From assembly GCA_018883185.1 (NCBI GenBank), contig VEQP01000014.1, positions 1 to 64,000 of the forward strand: a DNA stretch of 64,000 bases. Reading direction: 5' to 3'. This stretch comes from Nevskiaceae bacterium. Its GTDB lineage: Bacteria > Pseudomonadota > Gammaproteobacteria > Steroidobacterales > Steroidobacteraceae. Below, piece after piece: positions 21,237 through 62,882 of the stretch. Both the position numbers and the translations under genes were made by a program. Positions within the stretch are counted from its first letter, which is position 1. The number at the start of each line of letters is the position of its first letter. Below the pieces are notes generated by a model, which was given only the letters and a program-made list of their open reading frames with translations, did not search any database and had not been told where the DNA came from.

Positions 21237-22178
21237 TCAGGAATAGAACTGCGCCGCGAGCAAATCGAGGCGTTGCTCGAAGTCGCCACCCGTGGGCAGC
21301 AACACGCAGCCGGCGGGCAATTCTTCGGCGCTCAACATGCGAGCAGCGAAACCGCCCACCCACACTTCGCAGCGTCCTTTCAATTCATCGGCGAGCTGCG
21401 ATAACTGCAACAAGGCCGGCACTTCGTTCTCGGGCATGACGAGCGACACAAGTACGGCTCGCGCATCGACCTCGAGCGCAAAGCGCGCGATCTCAAGCGG
21501 CGGACAATCGACGCCGAGATAGTGCGTTCGGAACCGCCGCGTTGCAGCCAACCAACTGCACATCAAAATGCCAAGTTCGTGACGCTCGCCCGACAGCGTA
21601 GCGAGCACGAGGCAGGGACCGGTGTCCGAGCGAAGATAGCCGCGAGAGACCGAGATGATCAGCCGACGCACGATGTCGGTGACCATGTGCTCCTGTGCTA
21701 TCGAAACTTCTCCGCGGTGCCAACGCTCACCCACTTCGCGCACGAGCGGCACGAGGATGGTGTTGACGACTTCGTTCGGCGGCAACAAAGCCACCGCCGA
21801 GGTCAACACTTCTTCCACCCCGGACGGGTCGGAGTGCTCAGCGGCATCGATGGCCCGCTCGACATAGGACTGGCCTCGAGTCGGCCCGGGACGGGCCTGG
21901 CCGCCCGAGTCGGCCACCAACTTGGCGAGATCGTCTTCGCCTAGATGCGCGAGGCGGCTGATGGTGTGGCCGAGTTCCGTGGCGGTGCGCAGCAAACGCA
22001 GGCGGGCGACGTCAGCGGCTGAATAGGTGCGCCGGCCTGAACCGTCGCGCGAGGGGGTAACCACCTCGTACCGCCGCTCCCAGGCCCGCAGGGTCTCGAC
22101 CGTCAAGCCGGTGGCTTGGGCGACGGCTTTAATCGTGAATTGGCCGACTGAACGCGGCGATGAGGCGGGTTTGTTCAT
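21237..22178 (-). CDS. CarH/LitR-type MerR regulator with B12-binding light-sensor domain
   Basis: 313 residues. A MerR winged helix (residues 14-80, FTIKAVAQATGLTVETLRAWERRY) is joined to a cobalamin-binding module. Key residues of the light-sensing CarH are all at matching spacing: W153 and H154 in ERWHRGEVSIAQEH, E163 and H164, and the lower-ligand His H200 in GERHELG. In CarH proteins adenosylcobalamin makes a DNA-binding tetramer in the dark, and light breaks it apart to release target genes. The gene is divergent from the fasciclin gene across a repeat-rich spacer. Light sensing is inferred from residue conservation. Confidence 0.88.
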   Translation of the reverse strand: MNKPASSPRSVGQFTIKAVAQATGLTVETLRAWERRYEVVTPSRDGSGRRTYSAADVARLRLLRTATELGHTISRLAHLGEDDLAKLVADSGGQARPGPTRGQSYVERAIDAAEHSDPSGVEEVLTSAVALLPPNEVVNTILVPLVREVGERWHRGEVSIAQEHMVTDIVRRLIISVSRGYLRSDTGPCLVLATLSGERHELGILMCSWLAATRRFRTHYLGVDCPPLEIARFALEVDARAVLVSLVMPENEVPALLQLSQLADELKGRCEVWVGGFAARMLSAEELPAGCVLLPTGGDFEQRLDLLAAQFYS

Positions 22179-22328: not shown

Positions 22329-22814
22329 ATGACCCGTTTTAACGCCAAGATCGCTCTCGCTACCGCCCTGCTCGCCGCAGGTTCGGTGGTTGCTTCCGCC
22401 TCAGGCTCGTCTGTCCTCGATGTCGCCAAGGAGAAGGGTAACTTCACCACCCTCGCCAAGGCCATCGAAGTGGCCGGCCTCCAGGACGCCCTCACCGCTC
22501 AAGGGCCCGTCACCATCTTCGCGCCGACCGACGAGGCCTTCGCGAAACTGCCGCCCGCCCAGCTCGAGGCGCTGCTGCGTCCCGAGAACAAGGACCAGCT
22601 GGTCAAGATCCTCACCAACCACGTGGTTCCGGGCAAGGCGCTCGAAGCCGACGACATGAAGCGCACGCGTAGTGCCAAGACCGTGGCCGGCGAAGAAGTG
22701 AAGTTCGAGCTCGTCCGTGGCCGCCTGCGCGTCGATGGCGCCCGCGTCACGGGTGACTACAACGCCGACAACGGCGTGGTCGTGGCCGTCGACAGCGTGC
22801 TGCTGCCGAACTGA
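22329..22814 (+). CDS. Secreted fasciclin (FAS1) domain protein
   Basis: 161 residues from the ATG at 22329, with AGGAG seven bases upstream. A signal peptide ends near VVASASG, followed by one complete FAS1 domain: H1 motif GPVTIFAPTDEAFAKLP and H2-like LTNHVVPGKALEADDM, ending NGVVVAVDSVLLPN. FAS1 proteins mediate adhesion or bind small hydrophobic molecules outside the cell. The divergent CarH-like gene suggests light control. Confidence 0.93.
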   Translation: MTRFNAKIALATALLAAGSVVASASGSSVLDVAKEKGNFTTLAKAIEVAGLQDALTAQGPVTIFAPTDEAFAKLPPAQLEALLRPENKDQLVKILTNHVVPGKALEADDMKRTRSAKTVAGEEVKFELVRGRLRVDGARVTGDYNADNGVVVAVDSVLLPN

Positions 22815-22914
22815 AGCGCTGACACCACCTTGGAATCGGGCATCGCTTCGCCGTGATGCCCACCCCTCCCAAGGACGGGAGGGTGGCAAGGATGCCAAAC
22901 GTCCATGGACGATC

Positions 22915-22948
22915 CGGGCGAGGCGGGCTGAAAAGTCCGTCTCGCCCG
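22915..22948. repeat. GC-rich inverted repeat in the fasciclin-metE-like spacer
   Basis: CGGGCGAGGCGG and CCGTCTCGCCCG pair in a long stem around a short loop. An upstream hairpin (CCACCCCTCCC with GGGAGGGTGG, about 22859-22886) also occurs. Neither is followed by a convincing T tract, though a run of A residues follows at about 22967. They may end fasciclin transcription or fold in the leader of the next operon. Confidence 0.45.
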
Positions 22949-23070
22949 GGGCCGTTTAGGGTCCCCAAAAAACCGTCTCCGTAACGAACACGCCACTCAC
23001 CAATCCACTAGGTGAGCACGAACCGCCGCATCGGGCGGCCATCATCGGCGCGTTGCTACGATGCCGCGCG

Positions 23071-24087
23071 ATGTTTCCCACCACGACCGTCGGCAGTCTG
23101 CCGAAACCCGACTGGCTCGCCGAGCCCGAGAAACTCTGGGCCGCTTGGCGTTTGTCGGGCGAGGCCCTGCAACAAGCCAAAGAGCGCGCCGCACTCGAGT
23201 GGCTGCGCGAGCAGGAGGCCGCCGGCATCGATATCGTGGGCGATGGCGAGCAGTTTCGCATGCACTTCGTCCACGGCTTTCTCGAGGGCCTCGAAGGCAT
23301 CGACTGGACGCGCAAGACGCGCATGGGCATCCGCAACAATCGCTACGAGGCGGACGTACCGACCGTCACCGGGCCACTGCACCGTCCACGACCGGTGCAT
23401 GTGCCGGACGCCGCGTTCATGCGCCGTCACACTACGCAGAAACTGAAAATCACTCTGCCTGGGCCGATGACCATCTGCGACACACTCGCCGATGGCTACT
23501 ATGGCCGGCGAGCCGACATGGCGATGCGATTCGCCGAGCTGCTCAACGCCGAGGCTCGCGAAATCGAAGCCGCTGGCGCCGAAGTGATACAGTTTGATGA
23601 ACCCGCATTCAATGTATTTCTCGATGAAGTACGCGAGTGGGGTTTGCCGGCGCTCGAGCGCGCGATGCAGGGCCTGCGAGCGACTACGGTCGTGCACATC
23701 TGCTATGGCTACGGGATCGAAGCCAACATCCAATGGAAAGCCTCCCTCGGCGACCAATGGCGGCAGTACGAGCAGATTTTTCCGTGGATCAACGCGAGCA
23801 GCGTGCAGCAGGTATCGCTGGAATTTGCCGGCTCGCGCGTGCCACATGAAGTCTTGCGCCTGCTGCCCGACAAGACGCTGCTGGTCGGCGCGATAGAAGT
23901 GCTGCCCGGCAAACTTGAGAGCCCCGAAGAGGTGGCCCACAACATCCTTGAAGCCACGCGGCATGTGGACTCCGCACGCCTCGTACCCTGCACCAACTGC
24001 GGCATGGCGCCTTTGTCTGCGGCGCTCGCGCGCAGCAAATTACAGGCGCTCGGTGCCGGTGCCGCTTTGGCCCGCCGCCAGCGCTGA
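23071..24087 (+). CDS. Core MetE-like zinc methyltransferase (cobalamin-independent methionine synthase family)
   Basis: 338 residues, corresponding only to the C-terminal catalytic barrel of MetE. The zinc ligands are all recognisable: His and Cys in VVHICYGYG, Glu in SLEFAGS, Cys in VPCTNCGM. The opening TTVGSLPKPDWL is typical. Stand-alone core-MetE proteins include short methionine synthases (MesD, which works with MesX) and relatives that transfer or cleave alkyl groups on other thiols, such as epoxyalkane:coenzyme M transferase. No mesX-like gene is next to it. It heads a run with an SDR, a racemase-fold protein and a flavin hydroxylase, so a catabolic transfer is as likely as methionine synthesis. 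Confidence 0.8.
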   Translation: MFPTTTVGSLPKPDWLAEPEKLWAAWRLSGEALQQAKERAALEWLREQEAAGIDIVGDGEQFRMHFVHGFLEGLEGIDWTRKTRMGIRNNRYEADVPTVTGPLHRPRPVHVPDAAFMRRHTTQKLKITLPGPMTICDTLADGYYGRRADMAMRFAELLNAEAREIEAAGAEVIQFDEPAFNVFLDEVREWGLPALERAMQGLRATTVVHICYGYGIEANIQWKASLGDQWRQYEQIFPWINASSVQQVSLEFAGSRVPHEVLRLLPDKTLLVGAIEVLPGKLESPEEVAHNILEATRHVDSARLVPCTNCGMAPLSAALARSKLQALGAGAALARRQR

Positions 24088-24106
24088 GACGGAGCGACAC
24101 GCACGC

Positions 24107-24883
24107 ATGGATCTGCAACTCACTGGCAAACGCGTGGTGCTCTGCGGTGCAAGCGGCGTTCTTGGCCGAGCGATCGCACGAACGCTCGCCGCCGAGGGCG
24201 CACAGGTCGCCTTGCTCGGTCGCGATCTCGGTCGGCTGCAGGTCGAAGCGATGCAGCGACCCGCGAATTTCTGCGCCATCGGCTGCGACCTTGGCTCCGC
24301 AGCCGGCACAGCACACGCCATCGAAGAAGCGATCACCGCGCTAGGCGGCCTCGACGTGTTCGTCTCGGCGGCGGGCGCTGCGCAAGGCGGCGTGTTCTGG
24401 GAAATCGACGATGCCGCTTGGCAGCGCAACCTCGACATCAAGTTATTCGGCACCATACGCGCACTGCGCGAGGTCGCGCCGCGCATGATCGAGCAACGCG
24501 GCGGACGTATTGTTCTCGTGGTCGGCAACTCCGCACGTCAACCGGAACCGCGCATGTTGCCGGGTGCCGCAGCCAACGCGGCGCTGCTGGCCATCGTGCG
24601 CGGCCTTGCCGAAGAGCTCGGTCCGCACGGCGTCGCGATCAATGCGGTCAACCCAGGTCCGGTGCGCTCGAGTCGCTGGGACACGCTGATGCAGGCGGCA
24701 GCGAAACGCGAGGGCTGCACGCCCGCGGAGGCCGAAGCCAAGTTTCTCGAAAAGACGGCGCTGCGGCGCCTTGCAACGCCCGAAGAGGTCGCCGCCCACG
24801 TAGCCTTCCTCGCCTCGCCCATGGCCGCACACCTTACGGGCACCTCACTCACCATCGATGGCGGCAGTACCAAGTCACCATGA
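24107..24883 (+). CDS. SDR-fold protein lacking the YxxxK catalytic pair
   Basis: 258 residues. The nucleotide-binding motif GASGVLGRAIA, the SDR C-terminal FLASPMAAHLTGTSLTIDGG and VNPGPVRSS are clear. At the active site the usual YxxxK is replaced: after GNSARQPEPRMLP the equivalent positions read GAAAN, so Tyr is Gly and Lys is Asn. It may bind NAD(P) without classical oxidoreduction or use other residues. It starts 19 bases after the MetE-like gene and overlaps the next gene by 4 bases. Confidence 0.85.
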   Translation: MDLQLTGKRVVLCGASGVLGRAIARTLAAEGAQVALLGRDLGRLQVEAMQRPANFCAIGCDLGSAAGTAHAIEEAITALGGLDVFVSAAGAAQGGVFWEIDDAAWQRNLDIKLFGTIRALREVAPRMIEQRGGRIVLVVGNSARQPEPRMLPGAAANAALLAIVRGLAEELGPHGVAINAVNPGPVRSSRWDTLMQAAAKREGCTPAEAEAKFLEKTALRRLATPEEVAAHVAFLASPMAAHLTGTSLTIDGGSTKSP

Positions 24884-25623
24884 CCGACCAACTCGGCTAT
24901 CGCGGCCGCATCGCGATCGTCATTCCCTCGACCAACACAAGCTGTCAGCCCGAGTCCGAGCGCTTGCGCCCACCGGGAGTCACGAACCATGTTGCCCGCA
25001 TCAGCATCCGTGAACGACCGCTCACCAGTGAGCAGGCCTTTCTCGAGCACGTGCAAGCGATGCGCGATGGCATGCGCAGCGCAATCGACCAGGTGATGAC
25101 CTGCCAGCCGACGCACGTGATCATGGGCGTTGCGCTCGAAGCGTTCTGGGGCGGCATCGCAGCAGCCGACGAACTACAGCGCGAACTCGCCGAACGCGCA
25201 GGCGTCGGCGTCTCCATGGGCTCGACCGCGACCGTCGCGGCCCTGCGCAAGCTCGGAGCACGCTCCATTGCCGTGCTCACGCCGCACCAACCACGCGGGG
25301 ATGAACAGGTACGCCGCTATTTCGAGGAGGCAGGATTTGCACTGCCACGACTCATCGGCCTCAAGTGCCCATCGCCCGTGCAGATTGCCCATACCACGGA
25401 GCGGCAAGTCATCGATGCCTTGCGCGCACTCGATGGCGACGACGTCGATGCAATCGTGCAGGTCGGTACCAATCTTGCCGCCATCGACATCTGCGCTGAG
25501 GCCGAGCGCTGGCTCGGCAAGCCGGTGCTAGCGATCAATGCCATCACTTACTGGGACGCGCTGCGACGCTCCGGTATCGACGATCGGGTGCAGGGCTGCG
25601 GCTCGGTACTGGAGCGCTTTTAA
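24880..25623 (+). CDS. Asp/Glu-racemase superfamily protein (maleate isomerase/arylmalonate decarboxylase-like) without catalytic cysteines
   Basis: 247 residues, ATGA overlap with the SDR gene. The N-terminal pattern PSTNTSCQPESERLRPPGV and the C-terminal LGKPVLAINAITYWDALR are those of maleate cis-trans isomerase and arylmalonate decarboxylase. The two cysteine loops are altered: VIMGVALEAFWGG where YACTS is usual, and VQVGTNLAAIDI where a Cys precedes TNL. So neither proton-transfer Cys is present, and the reaction must differ or be lost. Confidence 0.8.
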   Translation: MTDQLGYRGRIAIVIPSTNTSCQPESERLRPPGVTNHVARISIRERPLTSEQAFLEHVQAMRDGMRSAIDQVMTCQPTHVIMGVALEAFWGGIAAADELQRELAERAGVGVSMGSTATVAALRKLGARSIAVLTPHQPRGDEQVRRYFEEAGFALPRLIGLKCPSPVQIAHTTERQVIDALRALDGDDVDAIVQVGTNLAAIDICAEAERWLGKPVLAINAITYWDALRRSGIDDRVQGCGSVLERF

Positions 25624-25643
25624 ATCGTGATGATGGAGAGACC

Positions 25644-26858
25644 GTGACGGACAGCGCGCACCGCGTGCTCATCGCCGGCGGTGGTCCTGCCGGGATGTCC
25701 GCCGCCTTGTTTCTGCTCGCCGAAGGCGTACCCGTGACCGTGCTGGAGCGCAGTGTCACGCCGCACGCGGACCCTCGCGCCGCCACCTACCATCCGCCCA
25801 CCCTCGAGATGCTCGAAGCGTCGGGCGTCACGGCCGAGTTGCATGAGCGCGGCATCGTCGCGCGCCACTGGCAGTATCGCGACCGACACAGCGGACTCGT
25901 TGCGCAGTTCGATCTCGGCGTGCTTGCTGCAGATACCCGCTACCCGTATCGCCTGCAATGCGAGCAGCACAAGCTCGTCGCCATGATGGAACGACGCGTG
26001 GCCGAACACCCGCTCGCGCGCGTCGTGCACGGTGCCGAACTCATCGGCGTCACGCAGACCGACGGTCAGGTGCAGATCGAGGTGCGCCACGCGCATGGCG
26101 GCAGCGAGCAACTGCAAGGTCAGTGGCTGATCGGTGCCGACGGGGGACGCAGCCTGGTGCGTAAATCGCAGGACATCGGCTTCGAGGGCTTCACCTGGCC
26201 CGAGCGCTTTCTCGTCATCACCACCACGTTCGACTTCGCCACGCTTGGCTACGCGTTCAGCTCCTACACCATGGACCCGATCGAGTGGGCCGCAACCTTC
26301 AAGGTGCCGGGAGAAGACGAGCAGGGTATCTGGCGCTGCGTGTTCCCGACGCGACCCGAAGACGCCGAAGACGTATTGCTCGACTTCGGGCGCGCGGCGG
26401 AGCGACTCGCCGCCTTTGCCCCCGAGAGCAAACAAGGCCGCATCCTGCACACCAATCTTTACGCCGTACACCAACGCGTCGCGCAAACCTATCGCAAGGG
26501 CCGCGTGCTGCTCGCCGGCGATGCGGCGCACGTCAACAATCCACTCGGCGGTATGGGTCTCAACTTCGGCGTGCACGACGCACATAACCTCGCGCATCGA
26601 CTCGGTCGCATCTGGCGCGGCGAGGCGGGCAGCGAACTGCTTGATCAATACGATCGGCAACGACGAGCTGTGGCCGAGCGCTATTTGCAAGCGCAGACGA
26701 TCGCCAACAAACAAACGCTCGAAGAAACGGACGAGCAGGCGCGCCGGGCCCGGCAAGCCGCGATGCGTGCGACCGCAGCCGACCCACAGCAGGCGCGCCA
26801 GTACCTGCTGCGGACCGCCATGATCGAGGGCTTGCGCGCAGCGGCGTCGATCGACTGA
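25644..26858 (+). CDS. FAD-dependent aromatic hydroxylase (PheA/TfdB-like)
   Basis: 404 residues, GTG start after GGAGAG. FAD-binding GGGPAGMSAALFL at the N-terminus, the DG motif IGADGGRSLVRK (about 165) and the GD motif GRVLLAGDAAHVNNPLGGMGLN (about 290) define a group A flavoprotein monooxygenase. It lacks the C-terminal thioredoxin-like domain of phenol hydroxylase. It probably hydroxylates an aromatic or heteroaromatic ring using NAD(P)H and oxygen. It follows the racemase-like gene by 20 bases and is the last of the closely spaced set. Confidence 0.88.
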   Translation: MTDSAHRVLIAGGGPAGMSAALFLLAEGVPVTVLERSVTPHADPRAATYHPPTLEMLEASGVTAELHERGIVARHWQYRDRHSGLVAQFDLGVLAADTRYPYRLQCEQHKLVAMMERRVAEHPLARVVHGAELIGVTQTDGQVQIEVRHAHGGSEQLQGQWLIGADGGRSLVRKSQDIGFEGFTWPERFLVITTTFDFATLGYAFSSYTMDPIEWAATFKVPGEDEQGIWRCVFPTRPEDAEDVLLDFGRAAERLAAFAPESKQGRILHTNLYAVHQRVAQTYRKGRVLLAGDAAHVNNPLGGMGLNFGVHDAHNLAHRLGRIWRGEAGSELLDQYDRQRRAVAERYLQAQTIANKQTLEETDEQARRARQAAMRATAADPQQARQYLLRTAMIEGLRAAASID

Positions 26859-26934
26859 CTACGCCGTCGGCCAAGCGCGCTAGAATGCGCTTCGGGGGTT
26901 GTCGCGCTAGGCGCGACGTGTACAGGGCAGGAGT

Positions 26935-28002
26935 GTGCGCACGGTGATCTGGGTCAAGCGTATCGGCTGGGTTCTGGCGTCGCTGATTCTGGTGCTGCTG
27001 CTGTTCACGCTCGAATTCATGCACTTCGGCGGTCAGTTCACGGCTTTACCCACCGCCGTACCCGGTCCCTGCTCGCGCATCGCGCTCAACGCCAGCGCCG
27101 AGGACATCCAGATCGATCGCAGTCGTGGCATTGCGTATCTGTCGGCACTGGACCGGCGTGGTCTCGTAGAGGGTCGAAACGTGCAGGGTGATGTGCTGCA
27201 ACTCGATCTGAACGGCGAGGCAGCCGCTCCCGTATCCGCGCTTGCGGCGCGACCTGCGGACTTCCGTCCGCACGGCATGTCGCTGTATCGCATGGGAGAT
27301 GGGATGCAGCGGCTGTTCGTGATCTCGCACCCCGCAGGCGGCGGTCACAGCATCGAAATCTTCGAGCAAGTGGGCGGTGGATCGTTCCGCCCCGTCGCGA
27401 GCATCCGACATCCGCTGCTGCTGTCACCGAACGCCATCGTCGCAGTGGGCCCGGAACAGTTCTACGTCGCCAACGACAAGGGCGCCACCAACAGTCTGCA
27501 ACGTGCCAGCGAGTTCGGGCTGCGCCGCGGCATGTCGAAGCTCGTGTACTTCGACGGCCAGGACATGCGCGTCGTTGCCGAGGGCTTGAAGAGTGCGGTG
27601 GGTCTTGGCATCAGCCCCGACGGCCTGCGCCTGTATGCGGCCGAAACCCTCGGCAAGCGCTTGGCGATCTACCGGCGCAATGCCGGCACGGGCGACCTCG
27701 TGTTCGACAAGCACGTACCGCTCGCCGGCTCGCCCGACAATATCAACGTCGACGCCGAGGGCGAGGTCTGGGTCGCCGTTCATGCGCGGCTGCTTGATCT
27801 CGTGCGCAACTTCGGCGATGCCGGGCATGCCTCGCCGACGCAGATCGTGCGTTACGTCGACACCGCCAAGCCGTCGCTGCGAACGGTATATGCGCAGGAT
27901 GGTCGCGAGATCTCGGCGGGTAGCGTTGGATCGGTCTTCAATGGCACGCTGCTCATCGGATCGATCACGGATCGCAACGTGCTGCGCTGCCGGCTGCCCT
28001 GA
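26935..28002 (+). CDS. Paraoxonase (PON)/arylesterase-family lactonase, membrane-anchored
   Basis: 355 residues, one N-terminal membrane helix (about 12-30) and then a six-bladed propeller that matches animal PON1 almost end to end: SAEDIQID (catalytic-calcium Glu), RPHGMS (His115-like), ISHPAGGGHSIEIFE (His134-like), SPNAIVAVGPEQFYVAND, SPDNINVD (Asp/Asn ligands) and C-terminal LLIGSITDRNVLRC. The equivalent of the Asn224 ligand (ANGIN in PON1) reads AVGLG, so one calcium ligand is missing. PONs hydrolyse lactones and aryl esters. A 76-base gap separates it from the hydroxylase gene. Confidence 0.85.
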   Translation: MRTVIWVKRIGWVLASLILVLLLFTLEFMHFGGQFTALPTAVPGPCSRIALNASAEDIQIDRSRGIAYLSALDRRGLVEGRNVQGDVLQLDLNGEAAAPVSALAARPADFRPHGMSLYRMGDGMQRLFVISHPAGGGHSIEIFEQVGGGSFRPVASIRHPLLLSPNAIVAVGPEQFYVANDKGATNSLQRASEFGLRRGMSKLVYFDGQDMRVVAEGLKSAVGLGISPDGLRLYAAETLGKRLAIYRRNAGTGDLVFDKHVPLAGSPDNINVDAEGEVWVAVHARLLDLVRNFGDAGHASPTQIVRYVDTAKPSLRTVYAQDGREISAGSVGSVFNGTLLIGSITDRNVLRCRLP

Positions 28003-28062
28003 CAGGCCACCGACTTCGCAGCGGGCGCAGCCGCACAGCAGAACACACGGGGGATCACGCAC

Positions 28063-29631
28063 ATGTCACTGAACCGACGCCAATTCGTCGCCAGCACCGC
28101 AGCCACAGCGGCCGTCGCGAGCCTATCCAACACCGCCTGGACGGCGAGCAGCGGCGATCCCGACGTCATCGTCATCGGTGCCGGGCTCTCCGGGCTTGAG
28201 GCCGCCGTCACACTCGAAGAAAACGGTCTGAAGGTTCGTGTCCTCGAGGGTCGGCAACGCGTCGGTGGCCGCGTTTACACCTTGTTCGATCTGCCGGGTC
28301 ACCCGGAAGTGGGCGGCAACAGTATCGCCAACGCCTACGGGCGCTGCCTCGCTGCCGCCGAGAAATACGGCATCGAGGTCGTCAACGTCATGCCGCGTCT
28401 GATGGCCAATCGGGCAGGTCAGGAGTTGTTCCTCGGTGGCGAACATATTGCGCTCAAAGACTGGCCGACCCACCGCCGCAACCCGTTCGCAGCCGACATG
28501 AAAAAGCTCCCACCCTGGGCCTGGGCGGATGCCATGTTCAAGCAGCACATGCCCTTCCGCGACCTGCAGAACTGGTATGACGAAGCGCATGCGCAATACG
28601 ACGTCTCGATCCATGAGTTCCTCTCGTCGAAAGGCGCCACCGACGCCATGATCCGCCTCGGCTACGACACCAACATCGCCTACGGCACCACGGCGTACGA
28701 CGTGTCACTGCTGCAGCAGGCATTCTCCGATCACTGGCAGAACGTCAATCGCGGCGCAATCATGGCCTTCTCGCGCACGGGCGCGGTGAATGCGCCGACG
28801 CCCGGCGCTGCACCGGCTGCGCCTCCCGCAGCGGCTGCGCCTCCCGCAGCGGCTGCGCCCGCCTCGCCGCCCGGCATGACCGGCGGCAACATCCTCATCG
28901 GCGTTTTCAAGGGCGGTAATCAACGTCTGCCGATGGCCATGGCGCAGCGCCTGAAAGGCGATCTGCTGCAAGGCAAGCGCGTCGTGGCGATCGAGACCTC
29001 GGCCACCGGTGCCAAAGTGACCTGCAGTGACGGCTCGGTGCATCGCGCCAAGGCCGTCATCTGCTCGATGCCGTTCTCCACGCTGCGCAACGTAGCCCTC
29101 GATCCGTTGCCACCGCCCGTGCAGAACAAGGCCATTCATACGCTCGGTTACATCCCGATCACGCAGTTCCACGTGCTGTCAAAGAAACCGTTCTGGGAAA
29201 CCGACGGTCTGTCACCCTCGATGTGGACCGATGGTCCGCTTGGCCTCGTGCTCGCCCAGAAGTTCGGCAAGACCGACACCGAGGTGACGAGTCTCACCGT
29301 CTGGTGCCGCGGCCTCAATGGCCTTTACATCGATCGCTTCAACGTCGAGGACGCCAAGCGGATGATCATCGCCGAGTTCGAGCGACTGCGGCCAGCCTCC
29401 AAGGGACTGCTGAAAGTCGGCGCGGTGCACTCATGGACCACTGATCCGTTCTCAGCAGGCGACTGGGCGATTTTCCACCCCGGCCAGGTGCGCGAGCTGC
29501 GCGCGGCCATAGCCCAGCCGCATCAGCGGCTGTTCTTTTGCGGCGAACACACCTCGATCGGCAGCCGCGGCATGGAAGGCGCGTTCGAGTCGGCGGAGCG
29601 TGTCTCGCTCGAGGTGCTCGGGGCGATCTGA
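28063..29631 (+). CDS. Tat-exported FAD-dependent amine oxidase family protein
   Basis: 522 residues. The N-terminus has a twin-arginine signal (NRRQFVASTAATAAVAS). FAD binding is shown by VIVIGAGLSGLEAA (about 32) and GRQRVGGRVYT, with the C-terminal FCGEHTSIGSRGMEGAFESAERV completing the flavin site of the monoamine oxidase/polyamine oxidase fold. A Pro/Ala-rich insert near residues 243-268 is encoded by a tandem repeat. Substrate unknown: an amine or a desaturation substrate. It follows the PON gene by 60 bases. Confidence 0.88.
   Translation: MSLNRRQFVASTAATAAVASLSNTAWTASSGDPDVIVIGAGLSGLEAAVTLEENGLKVRVLEGRQRVGGRVYTLFDLPGHPEVGGNSIANAYGRCLAAAEKYGIEVVNVMPRLMANRAGQELFLGGEHIALKDWPTHRRNPFAADMKKLPPWAWADAMFKQHMPFRDLQNWYDEAHAQYDVSIHEFLSSKGATDAMIRLGYDTNIAYGTTAYDVSLLQQAFSDHWQNVNRGAIMAFSRTGAVNAPTPGAAPAAPPAAAAPPAAAAPASPPGMTGGNILIGVFKGGNQRLPMAMAQRLKGDLLQGKRVVAIETSATGAKVTCSDGSVHRAKAVICSMPFSTLRNVALDPLPPPVQNKAIHTLGYIPITQFHVLSKKPFWETDGLSPSMWTDGPLGLVLAQKFGKTDTEVTSLTVWCRGLNGLYIDRFNVEDAKRMIIAEFERLRPASKGLLKVGAVHSWTTDPFSAGDWAIFHPGQVRELRAAIAQPHQRLFFCGEHTSIGSRGMEGAFESAERVSLEVLGAI
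28819..28854 (+). repeat. 18-base tandem repeat inside the amine oxidase gene
   Basis: Two perfect copies of GCGCCTCCCGCAGCGGCT (28819-28836 and 28837-28854), with degenerate partial copies on both sides, encode a Pro/Ala-rich loop. Copy number could vary by slippage without breaking the frame. Confidence 0.9.
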
Positions 29632-29653
29632 CGGCCTGCCGCTCGGTGCGGCG

Positions 29654-30193
29654 CTATAAGTCCCCGCCGGCGCCGCGCCAACGCGGCTTCGGGTACGGAT
29701 CTTCTTTGGCAGGCTTCGGCCGCACGGTCGACTTGCTGCGCCAAAGAATCAACCACCAGAAGCCGAAGAACGACAAGGTCATCCAGCAGAACTCGTGCAT
29801 CCCCCAGCGCTCGACGCCCAAGCGCGCGAGATTTTCGAACAAGATGAAGACGACGGTGAATGCGACAGCGCTCGCCAGTGCGCCGAGCTTCCAAGCCCCT
29901 GAACGATTGCGCCCACGGATGCCGATGATCCACCACGCTGTCAGGTAGAACACGGTATAGAGGTTGATCAGCACCAGCCAAGTAGGCTTCGGTGCGTTCA
30001 GCCAGTAGTGGTTGACCCAGAACGCGCCGGCACCGAAGAACGTCAGCAGCACATAACGCCACTCATCCAGCGGTTCTTTCAGTAGCCGCTGCCAGAGCCA
30101 CACCAGAAATACATACACCGTCCAGGTGCCGAAGATCAGTTCATAGAACTGCACCTTGCCCTGCCAGGCATCTTCAAGCGGCGGCATCCACAT
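29654..30193 (-). CDS. Unknown multi-pass membrane protein
   Basis: 179 residues from the ATG at 30193. Longer in-frame starts would run into the opposite-strand KAS III gene and seem unlikely. About five Trp/Phe-rich membrane helices are visible (near 18-35, 46-64, 70-90, 104-122, 136-152), ending in a basic, Pro-rich cytoplasmic tail (KPAKEDPYPKPRWRG). I do not recognise a family. It is convergent with the amine oxidase gene and divergent from the KAS III gene. Confidence 0.65.
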   Translation of the reverse strand: MWMPPLEDAWQGKVQFYELIFGTWTVYVFLVWLWQRLLKEPLDEWRYVLLTFFGAGAFWVNHYWLNAPKPTWLVLINLYTVFYLTAWWIIGIRGRNRSGAWKLGALASAVAFTVVFILFENLARLGVERWGMHEFCWMTLSFFGFWWLILWRSKSTVRPKPAKEDPYPKPRWRGAGGDL

Positions 30194-30344
30194 TGGCGTT
30201 GTCCCCCAGAACACTGCAACGTCAGACCGTACCCGTCGACCATAACGACTCAGCGACCGCGGTGTGACCGTGACGCACTCCCGTGGCCAACCAATGGAAC
30301 AGCTGCCACGGCGCGAGTATCCTCGGCAAAGCAAAGGGGGTCGC

Positions 30345-58661: not shown

Positions 58662-60203
58662 TCACTCCTCAATAACCTCGTCTGTTAAGCCCGCTTTGCG
58701 CCGATCGCAAAAATCCCTCAATGCCTCGTCGGTTGCGGGATCGATGCCCGGATCGTTGTACTCGGCAAGCATCTGCTTCCAAACGTGATTGGCCCGTTGC
58801 TCGGCGGTCAGCCGTCCCTCGGCGGACCACTGCTCATAAGAGGCGTAGTCCGCAATGTTGGAGTGATGAAATGCTCCCTCGAAATTGGCTTGGGTATGCG
58901 CGCAGCCAAAAAAATGATTGCCTGGGCCCACTTCGCGGATAGCATCGAGCGCCAGCCCGCGAGGGCTGACATCGATGCCTGCAGCCACGGCGTGCAACAT
59001 GGCCAACTGGTCGATATCCATGACAAATTTCTCGTAGGAAACGACCAACCCCGACTCGAGCCAGCCCGCGGCGTGGGTAACCAGATGCGCACCAGCAAGG
59101 AGAGTCGGCAGCAGTGTGTTTGCGGTCTCGTATCCAGCCTGCGCGTCGGCGACCTTCGATGAACAAAGAGCGCCTCCCGTTCGGCATGGAACGCCGAGAC
59201 GCCGCGCCAACTGCGCGGTGGCAAAGATCATCTGGGTCGCCTCGGCGGTGCCGAACATCGGCGAACCACTGCGCATCGACACGGCGCCGCAGAAGGATCC
59301 CATGATCACCGGTGAGCCGGGTCGCACCAATTGCGTCAGCGCCATACCCGCCATAGTCTCAGCGAGTATCTCCGCAATACATCCGGCCACCGTTACCGGA
59401 CCCATGGCACCCGCAAGCACAGCAGGCACGATGATGCAGCCTTGATTGCGCGAGGCAAACGCCCGTAAGGAACCAAGCATTCGGCCATCGAAAGTCAGCG
59501 GCGAATTCGAATTGATGTTGCCGAGCAATACGGGTTTCGTCTCGAGCGTGCCTTCGCCGAACACGATATCGGCCATCGCGATCGCATCAGCAGCGTGCCC
59601 CGGAGTCTCGGGTGTGCCTTCGCAGGCCTGATCGCTCCAACGAAAAGCCGCGTACTGCACATCGAGGTGCCGTTTGTTGGGAGGTAAGTCCATCGGCTCG
59701 CAGGCGCTGATACCCGTGAAGTGCAACGCGGGCGCCATGTGCGTCAACTTGACGAGGTTGACTACGTCCGCGATGGTGCCGTATCGGCGACCCCCGTCGA
59801 GGTCGGACACGAAAGGGGGGCCGGCCACCGGACCGAATGTCGTCGCGTCGCCACCGATGAGCAGATCACGGCGTGAGTCACGTGCGTGAAGCGTGAACTC
59901 GGTCGGGGCGCTCCGCAGCAAGGCCCGGCACATGCCTTTCGGTATGCGTACCCGTTCGCCGTTCACATCGGCGCCGGCGGCGCGCCACAAGCTCAGCGAC
60001 GGCAGATCCCGGCGAAACTCAATGCCAATCTCCTGCAAGATGTCTTCGGCGGCTTTCTCTATGAGTTCTACTGCCTCCTGGCTGAGCAAATCCATGGGCG
60101 GCAAGCGTCGGCGAATCTGCCCAAGTTTCGTTGTTCCAATCTTCGATCTTGCCACCCGGCGAGCCGCTCTCGTACGGCGCAACACTTCTACACCCTCCGC
60201 CAT
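58662..60203 (-). CDS. MttB-family (trimethylamine methyltransferase-like) protein without pyrrolysine
   Basis: 513 residues from the ATG at 60203, preceded by GGAGG with six-base spacing. It matches the MttB superfamily: EDILQEIGIEFRRD near the N-terminus, FGPVAGPPFVSDLDGG, PVLLGNINSNSPLTFDG and the C-terminal barrel region ANTLLPTLLAGAHLVTHAAGWLESG. No in-frame amber codon interrupts it, so it is not a Pyl enzyme; such relatives (for example MtgB) demethylate glycine betaine or other quaternary amines onto a corrinoid protein. No corrinoid partner gene is visible nearby. Confidence 0.85.
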   Translation of the reverse strand: MAEGVEVLRRTRAARRVARSKIGTTKLGQIRRRLPPMDLLSQEAVELIEKAAEDILQEIGIEFRRDLPSLSLWRAAGADVNGERVRIPKGMCRALLRSAPTEFTLHARDSRRDLLIGGDATTFGPVAGPPFVSDLDGGRRYGTIADVVNLVKLTHMAPALHFTGISACEPMDLPPNKRHLDVQYAAFRWSDQACEGTPETPGHAADAIAMADIVFGEGTLETKPVLLGNINSNSPLTFDGRMLGSLRAFASRNQGCIIVPAVLAGAMGPVTVAGCIAEILAETMAGMALTQLVRPGSPVIMGSFCGAVSMRSGSPMFGTAEATQMIFATAQLARRLGVPCRTGGALCSSKVADAQAGYETANTLLPTLLAGAHLVTHAAGWLESGLVVSYEKFVMDIDQLAMLHAVAAGIDVSPRGLALDAIREVGPGNHFFGCAHTQANFEGAFHHSNIADYASYEQWSAEGRLTAEQRANHVWKQMLAEYNDPGIDPATDEALRDFCDRRKAGLTDEVIEE

Positions 60204-61616: not shown

Positions 61617-62882
61617 ATGTCGATGCGGTTCCGTCATACACCCTACTCCGGCTGGCGACTGCTGCGCGAAGCGCTAGCTGACCAACAAGGTTGGACGCCT
61701 GCTTGGGAGGATCGTGACCCTTCGAACAAATACGACATCGTCATCATCGGCGGCGGTGGTCACGGGCTCGCCACCGCTTACTATTTGGCGCGTAGTCACG
61801 GCATCGAAAACGTCGCGGTCTTGGAGAAAGGCTGGATAGGCGGTGGCAACACGGGACGAAATACCACCATCATCCGTTCTAATTATTTTCATCCTCAAAG
61901 TGCGGCACTGTACGACCTGTCCGTATCGCTGTACGAATCGCTGTCCAAGGAGCTCAATTACAACATCATGTTCTCGCAGCGGGGCATGATGGAAATTGCC
62001 CACGACCAACCGGAACTCGAAGCGATGGCGCGCGCAGCCAACGCGATGCGCATCAACGGCGTCGACATCGAGGTTATCGACCGCGAGGAAGCCCTGCGTC
62101 GGGAGCCGCTGCTCGACCCATCACCACGTTCCCGTTGGCCGATCTGCGGCGCGTTGCTGCAGCGGCGCGCGGGCACTGCGCGTCACGATGCGGTCGCGTG
62201 GGGTTACGCGCGTGCGGCTGCATCGCGCGGCGTTCATATCATTCAAGGCTGTGAAGTGCTCGGCTTTCGTCAGGATCACAGGCGCGTCATCGCAGTGCAA
62301 ACCAACAGGGGCGAGGTTCGTGCAGAGCGGTTCGGGCTTGCTGTTGCGGGCAACTCCTCGGTGCTCGCTGGTCTGGCAGGATTCGAGTTGCCGCTGCAGA
62401 GCTACACTTTGCAGGCAATGGTGAGCGAGCCGGTAAAGCCGTGCCTGAATATGGTTTCTTTGTCGACGTCGACAGGTTCTTACATCAGCCAGTCTGATAA
62501 AGGCGAGTTGGTGATGGGTGGCAACCTGGATCGTTCTCCTTCTTACGCGCAGCGCGGCGGATTTCGCATCACACAGTCGGTGATCGCGCCTTTGCTCGAG
62601 ATGTTTCCCTGCTTTTCGACGCTGAAACTGATGCGTCAATGGGGCGGTACGATTGATGCATCGCCCGACAATTCACCGATCATCGGGCCAGCACCGCTCG
62701 ACGGGTTGTATCTCAACTGCGGTTGGGGCACGGGCGGATTCAAAGCCATTCCTGCCGGCGGCACGATGTTGGCGCATCTGCTGGCGACAGGGCGTCACCA
62801 CCCGCTGTCCGAACCGTTCGACTATCGCCGCTTTGCGCGCGGCGAGCTGGTCGACGAAGGCCACGCCGGCGTGGCGCACTGA
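61617..62882 (+). CDS. soxB: Sarcosine oxidase, beta subunit (heterotetrameric)
   Basis: 421 residues from the ATG at 61617. FAD motif IVIIGGGGHGLATAYYLARSHG (about 41-62), GNTGRNTTIIRSNYF, the FMN-attachment His (H190 in ARHDAVAWGYARA) and the C-terminal flavin-site GTIDASPDNSPIIGP with GWGTGGFKAIPAGG are as in SoxB. With SoxA, SoxD and SoxG it oxidises sarcosine to glycine, giving methylene-tetrahydrofolate and hydrogen peroxide. Confidence 0.94.
   Translation: MSMRFRHTPYSGWRLLREALADQQGWTPAWEDRDPSNKYDIVIIGGGGHGLATAYYLARSHGIENVAVLEKGWIGGGNTGRNTTIIRSNYFHPQSAALYDLSVSLYESLSKELNYNIMFSQRGMMEIAHDQPELEAMARAANAMRINGVDIEVIDREEALRREPLLDPSPRSRWPICGALLQRRAGTARHDAVAWGYARAAASRGVHIIQGCEVLGFRQDHRRVIAVQTNRGEVRAERFGLAVAGNSSVLAGLAGFELPLQSYTLQAMVSEPVKPCLNMVSLSTSTGSYISQSDKGELVMGGNLDRSPSYAQRGGFRITQSVIAPLLEMFPCFSTLKLMRQWGGTIDASPDNSPIIGPAPLDGLYLNCGWGTGGFKAIPAGGTMLAHLLATGRHHPLSEPFDYRRFARGELVDEGHAGVAH

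Follow-up and report, generated by a model that had tools for sequence, protein, structure and literature searches.

Within a 64,000-nucleotide stretch of contig VEQP01000014.1 from a Nevskiaceae bacterium (assembly GCA_018883185.1; the whole stretch is called the window here), four closely spaced genes form an operon whose first product, a MetE-like protein, is by its family models and conserved residues a core methionine synthase of the MesD family without MesX. The other three genes encode a short-chain dehydrogenase/reductase (SDR), a racemase-fold protein, and an FAD-dependent hydroxylase. In relatives of MesD that lack MesX, an unrelated flavin monooxygenase is often present in the position of MesX. 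The explanation tentatively favored here is that the window protein is a MesX-free synthase of the MesD type making methionine with a methyl group from the co-encoded flavin-oxygenase pathway; we infer the acceptor from residues, and infer also the donor and the functional link between hydroxylase and synthase.

According to the sections of Price et al. 2021 (PMC7857596) drawn on here, MesX is predicted to carry out a redox reaction that provides MesD with methyl groups, the MesD/MesX pair works only aerobically and needs neither folate nor B12, and as of 2021 neither the origin of the methyl group nor the chemistry of MesX was known. More recently, an mBio paper of 2026 (PMC13059711) describes two strains in which MesD homologues apparently allow N2O toxicity to be avoided. 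A paper on other oxygenase partners of MesD, or on the four-gene set, was not found in the open-access literature, in keeping with the suggestion of a preliminary interpretation of the window made without database searches (the sequence-only reading) that the gene set is undescribed.

The assignment to the MesD family is consistent across several kinds of comparison. The only Pfam family matched by the MetE-like protein is PF01717 Meth_synt_2 (98.8 bits, residues 2-326), it scores 489.5 bits against a cut-off of 392 for the NCBIfam model NF006589 “methionine synthase,” and its best solved relative is the MesD structure 3rpd (404.6 bits), a MesD protein with selenomethionine according to the same sections of PMC7857596. 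Seven residues, whose roles are taken from that source and whose positions were carried over by alignment, are invariant in all 88 aligned family proteins: S9, E60, and D176, which contact the amino acid, and H209, C211, E251, and C310, which form the zinc site that the sequence-only reading had described as intact. The window protein shares its catalytic domain and zinc site with full-length MetE, whereas it lacks the N-terminal folate domain PF08267. Like MesD, it consists of the core domain only, with the same zinc and homocysteine residues; unlike the gene for MesD, its gene stands in an operon with an SDR, a racemase-fold protein, and an FAD hydroxylase, in a genome and a genus where MesX was not found.

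The protein is also set apart within its family. At position 252, beside the zinc ligand E251, all 15 proteins of the window's genus have F, as against C in 70 of the 73 others. In a tree of the 88 proteins, the nine MesX-linked members make up two groups, neither of which includes the genus; the genus branch is long (0.38) and adjoins Hyphomicrobiaceae proteins, for which the flanks fetched show no MesX. A single clade of MesX-linked MesD proteins was considered and rejected, as a member on the OS-4 plasmid is MesX-linked and the tree gives two groups. MesX-linked homologues score 388-390 bits (Photobacterium) and 368 bits (Microbacterium) with a reference other than the Acinetobacter baylyi MesD, to which the criterion of Price et al., a score of at least 390 bits, refers (PMC7857596).

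A search for MesX (DUF1852, PF08908) gave no match in the 24 genus genomes, among them the one that the window comes from (89.6% complete), in agreement with the missing mesX neighbor remarked on in the sequence-only reading. The same search found nothing in built-in control genomes, but it evidently works, because it matched in four of 34 other genomes with homologues, three of which have MesX already seen next door. The N-terminal MetE domain PF08267 was likewise not found in any of the 24 genus genomes.

The sequence-only reading had considered possible a zinc-thiolate alkyl transfer within a degradative pathway, in analogy to epoxyalkane:coenzyme M transferase (EaCoMT; EtnE/XecA). In such a reaction, the hydroxylase would supply an epoxide or a different electrophile, to be opened by coenzyme M or another thiol. 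For comparison, one protein from the Nocardioides plasmid pNOCA01 was used, taken to be an EaCoMT from its monooxygenase and phosphosulfolactate synthase neighbors. This putative EaCoMT is a distant homologue of the window protein (26% identity over 328 columns) with the same four zinc ligands (H, C, E, C), and the oxidative companions of the window gene recall the oxygenase context of the known enzyme. The amino acid contacts argue against the analogy, however: where the window protein has S9, E60, and D176, the pNOCA01 protein has N, K, and D, and so lacks two of the three contacts, both of them kept in 88 of 88 family members. Moreover, the scan of window proteins turned up no coenzyme M genes, the genome not having been searched for them. 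An EaCoMT-like reaction is therefore not supported and appears very improbable. As the zinc ligands and homocysteine contacts are kept throughout the family while two of the contacts differ in the putative EaCoMT, homocysteine is likely the thiol and hence the methyl acceptor. In a separate case, the record AP026971.1 (locus L182:5001-6026) annotates a MesX-linked MesD-family gene as xecA1, 2-hydroxypropyl-CoM lyase; its product reaches 582 bits with the model for methionine synthase, and the label is probably a misannotation.

What accompanies MesD homologues outside the genus provides the broader evidence for the favored explanation. A first survey covered 65 such loci (63 of L027-L095 plus two loci on plasmids, of which one is MesX-linked), 55 of which have more than 1.2 kb of upstream sequence, many of the flanks being short. 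A same-strand upstream gene at a gap of less than 120 bases was present in 26 of the 65, and nine of these 26 genes encode flavin monooxygenases: six luciferase-like (PF00296) and three of the FAD_binding_3 family. By comparison, flavin monooxygenase profiles match only 3 of 353 genes lying more than 2.5 kb away. Because the luciferase-like monooxygenase (LLM) and flavin monooxygenase (FMO) profiles were built from some of the same neighbors, they favor the subfamilies counted. In independent Pfam scans of 48 close neighbors, 6 match Bac_luciferase and 3 match FAD_binding_3; among 125 distant genes each family has at most two members, and neither is one of the 25 families listed there (two or three members each). 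The Fisher value of the survey is 1.5e-9, a figure that ignores the relatedness of the loci. Two loci with an F420-type LLM two genes upstream (L029 and L043) were left out of the monooxygenase count.

The neighboring enzymes themselves are of more than one type. Both luciferase-like proteins tested against NCBIfam (L061, L066) belong to the MsnO8 family, and the two FAD proteins tested (L065, L091) resemble 3-hydroxybenzoate 6-monooxygenase, under its cut-off. Where MesX is present, it can have flavin reductases for company: on an Acinetobacter plasmid, MesX is annotated as “putative oxygenase” and MesD is followed by a flavin reductase, and on the OS-4 plasmid an FMN reductase, MesX, and the MesD-like gene stand in a row. 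Acidovorax NO-1 has a MesX-linked member and, in addition, a locus whose flanks show no MesX.

Two genome families were then sampled at 50 loci each, consisting of the best 30 and 20 lower-ranked loci hand-picked among the matches listed; “upstream” means here on the same strand within 1.5-1.7 kb, with adjacency seen in most loci. In the alphaproteobacterial family of a Pseudorhodoplanes genome, where 193 of 296 genomes searched have a MesD-like gene, 27 of the 30 best loci (L206-L235 except L227, L230, and L234) have an upstream FAD monooxygenase gene, which usually overlaps the MesD-like gene or sits within 50 bases of it. The family of a Comamonadaceae genome, with a MesD-like gene in 89 of 299, is more mixed: MesX is upstream in 11 of the 30 best and 2 of the 20 lower-ranked loci (13/50), a luciferase-like gene in 6 and 8 (14/50), and neither in 13 and 10 (23/50). 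Best-ranked loci favor the arrangement of the query because they are closest to it. At loci of the Pseudorhodoplanes family where the FAD monooxygenase is missing, a frequent neighbor (L267, L269, L270, L272, L274, L276, L277, L280, L282, and L230) is a divergent protein that begins with MI(D/E)LxYAPTPNGWKISIMLEE, apparently a glutathione S-transferase as judged by eye.

How might such a synthase obtain its methyl group? Under the favored explanation, the MesD-family core synthase would work without MesX, its zinc activating the homocysteine thiol as a thiolate, which would take up a methyl group to yield methionine. The methyl donor would probably be made in an O2-dependent manner by, or from, the co-encoded flavin-oxygenase pathway, which here would consist of a PnpA/HspB-type hydroxylase together with the SDR and the racemase-fold protein and would replace MesX. 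A more general proposal, that MesD-type core synthases work with several unrelated oxygen-activating partners, MesX being only one, seems rather unlikely as it stands; luciferase-like, 3-hydroxybenzoate-6-hydroxylase-like, and, in the window operon, PnpA/HspB-type flavin monooxygenases would then each deliver a one-carbon unit to zinc-bound homocysteine.

The four genes lie on one strand, with 19 bases between the first two, an overlap of 4 bases (ATGA) between the second and third, and 20 bases before the fourth, in agreement with the sequence-only reading. Of 11 named close relatives, 2 carry the label Steroidobacteraceae. The MetE-like gene is present in 15 of the 24 genus genomes, and the complete set in 11 (G000, G006, G009, G010, G012, G014, G015, G016, G017, G019, and G022), counting as complete G006, in which the SDR matches in two frames and the hydroxylase is cut by the contig end. 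Three more (G003, across a contig break, G004, and G005) have the MetE-like, SDR, and racemase-fold genes and no hydroxylase gene, so that these three genes occur jointly in 14 of 24 genomes. G007 has the SDR, racemase-fold, and hydroxylase genes on a contig that stops inside the SDR. The remaining genomes include seven with no MetE-like match and no racemase-fold match of at least 80%, some with weaker racemase-fold paralogues; the SDR was not searched by itself in these seven.

These distributions bear on a simpler possibility, which deserves serious if somewhat doubtful consideration: that the gene simply encodes an accessory enzyme of the ordinary kind, a methionine synthase or a homocysteine methylase, and that its neighbors are co-transcribed without sharing a pathway with it. 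The short spacing with its 4-base overlap speaks against mere co-transcription, as does the presence of the SDR and racemase-fold genes in 14 of the 15 MetE-like carriers; the long branch of the genus and its F252 likewise count against this possibility. Yet the four-gene set occurs in none of the 69 non-genus loci with the nearest homologues (L027-L095), where the only SDR and FMO matches are 24-35% identical, and the synteny of the region extends to genes with no relation to the set, such as hslV, DUF1800, and fasciclin. The four-gene linkage is real, found in one genus only, and breakable. The sequence-only reading had called for a neighborhood survey of the gene set and had made conserved linkage a point of decision; conservation holds within the one genus, while beyond it the set was not found in the 69 loci, and even inside it the MetE-like gene and the SDR-racemase pair each occur without the other.

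Several observations weigh against the favored explanation. The MetE-like gene stands alone in G023 (97% complete) and the SDR and racemase-fold genes alone in G013 (93% complete), a separation that also fits an accessory synthase. The hydroxylase is missing from 4 of the 15 MetE-like carriers (G003, G004, G005, and G023), which makes its link to the synthase weak, and in the window operon it lies three genes downstream of the synthase, not upstream. Among the sampled loci, the FAD monooxygenase is upstream in only 3 of the 20 lower-ranked loci of the Pseudorhodoplanes family (30/50 in total), and 43 of the 100 loci in both families have no oxygenase match upstream, three of them with less than 650 bases there. 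As the loci are related, the counts are not independent. Finally, another methionine synthase is usually at hand in the genus, since full-length MetH is found above its cut-off in 21 of the 24 genomes.

For the same reason, a role of the MetE-like protein as sole methionine synthase is not supported in general. G003 and G023 have no full-length MetH match, but MetH-like pieces are present in both; of the 34 genomes with homologues outside the genus set, 33 have a MetH match of some kind, 27 of them above the cut-off. A corrinoid module was also considered as the missing methyl donor. At least two of three MetH-like pieces (S-methyl_trans, pterin, B12) occur in 6 of the 15 MetE-like carriers (G000, G003, G006, G009, G017, and G023, with one piece unseen in each of G006, G009, and G023). 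The same is true of 5 of the 9 genomes without a MetE-like match (G001, G007, G011, G020, and G021). Because these pieces do not track the MetE-like gene, such a module is an unlikely donor.

The Pfam assignments of the companions confirm the families that the sequence-only reading had named. The SDR is the most divergent of the four proteins within the genus (59-95% identity). The racemase-fold protein belongs to the superfamily of maleate isomerase, arylmalonate decarboxylase, and EutA, but it scores under the NCBIfam cut-offs for EutA (73.3 bits against 318) and arylmalonate decarboxylase (69.1 against 225). In an alignment with 2xed/2xec, the two catalytic-cysteine columns hold V and G, and QVGTNL takes the place of the second-cysteine loop, a motif with at least 95% conservation across 79 rows, many of which repeat the same genomes. 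The aligned cysteine pair with its second-cysteine loop is what we take to be the catalytic site of maleate isomerase-type enzymes. This subfamily, without both aligned cysteines, also has a conserved TNT-x2-QP motif; plasmid records often label its members arylmalonate decarboxylase. The nearest solved relatives of the fourth protein are PnpA (227.6 bits) and HspB, a 6-hydroxy-3-succinoylpyridine 3-monooxygenase (168.4 bits); unlike the situation of those enzymes, no ring-cleavage gene was seen next to the window's fourth gene.

Relatives of the racemase-fold protein (42-50% identity) adjoin an FAD monooxygenase in three of 23 non-orthologous loci (L145, Thioclava, and Novosphingobium). Genes for isochorismatase, PEP-mutase, or an SDR lie nearby, and these contexts point to oxidative catabolism of some compound. 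They are also in line with a demethylation route, in which the methyl group of a compound processed by the SDR, racemase-fold protein, and hydroxylase would pass to homocysteine and its carbon be salvaged as methionine. Further encouragement comes from two Hyphomicrobiales loci (L027:6869-15460 and L093:6844-7977), where a MesD-like gene directly follows a zinc alcohol dehydrogenase gene (ADH domains) with no MesX in the fetched flanks, L027 also having, by eye, apparent formaldehyde-oxidation genes. But the adjacency to an FAD monooxygenase is confined to those three loci, G013 has the SDR and racemase-fold genes without the MetE-like gene, and no substrate is known, so that this route appears improbable. 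In L027, an apparent S-formylglutathione hydrolase gene and gcvTHP-like genes follow the MesD-like gene (by eye), a hint of one-carbon metabolism, and a methyltransferase-domain protein of about 400 amino acids lies by racemase-fold relatives in the same family of bacteria (L145:5065-6252 and L149:6159-7367).

Features of the operon and its surroundings in the window
Feature	Coordinates	Strand	Remarks
MesD-family core methionine synthase without MesX (by sequence), PF01717 only, 338 aa	23071..24087	+	S9/E60/D176 substrate sites and H209/C211/E251/C310 zinc ligands kept
Short-chain dehydrogenase/reductase, adh_short_C2, 258 aa	24107..24883	+	Pfam
Racemase-fold protein, Amdase/maleate isomerase/EutA superfamily, 247 aa	24880..25623	+	Pfam; under both named NCBIfam cut-offs
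FAD-dependent monooxygenase, FAD_binding_3, 404 aa, GTG start	25644..26858	+	Pfam; nearest solved relatives PnpA, HspB
Arylesterase/SMP-30-like (lactonase-like), possible fifth gene	26935..28002	+	76-base gap after hydroxylase
Flavin amine oxidase, possible sixth gene	28063..29631	+	60-base gap after arylesterase; Tat-like N-terminus by eye
MerR-type regulator with B12-binding domains	21237..22178	-	Syntenic neighbor of operon

The operon may extend into the arylesterase-like and amine oxidase genes. The arylesterase is found in 16 of the 24 genus genomes, and all 16 also carry the operon, whole or in part, though in G019 the arylesterase is on a different contig. G006 has the operon but gave no arylesterase match; its contig stops within the hydroxylase gene. 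In those genus loci that were read completely, the amine oxidase gene comes after the arylesterase gene. A consensus scan of 22780-30300 does not settle the transcript ends, as it gave no promoter-like and five terminator-like sites, against 4.8 in shuffles. No Rfam family was matched in the window at gathering scores. Genes were called with a simple codon score, and none for methionine metabolism was seen among the 33 window proteins scanned (55 called), as the sequence-only reading had noted for the surroundings of the operon.

If ordinary flavin monooxygenases do replace MesX, their chemistry could reveal the oxygenase step, and simple gene swaps could serve to test it. Predictions of B12-free growth from the name alone are unsafe in any case, since the “methionine synthase” model accepts MesX-free and MesX-linked members alike and a member goes by the name xecA1 in one record. 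Near the end of the window, with gene names partly assigned by eye, lie an MTTB-family methyltransferase gene (58662-60104, minus strand) and apparent sarcosine-oxidase genes (61617-62882, plus strand). Elsewhere in the genome (G000:C48, locus L307; names again partly by eye), genes for a corrinoid protein, an apparent methylene-tetrahydrofolate reductase, and a pterin methyltransferase stand in a row with an activator-like gene; together, the MTTB and corrinoid genes look like those for corrinoid demethylation of a quaternary amine.

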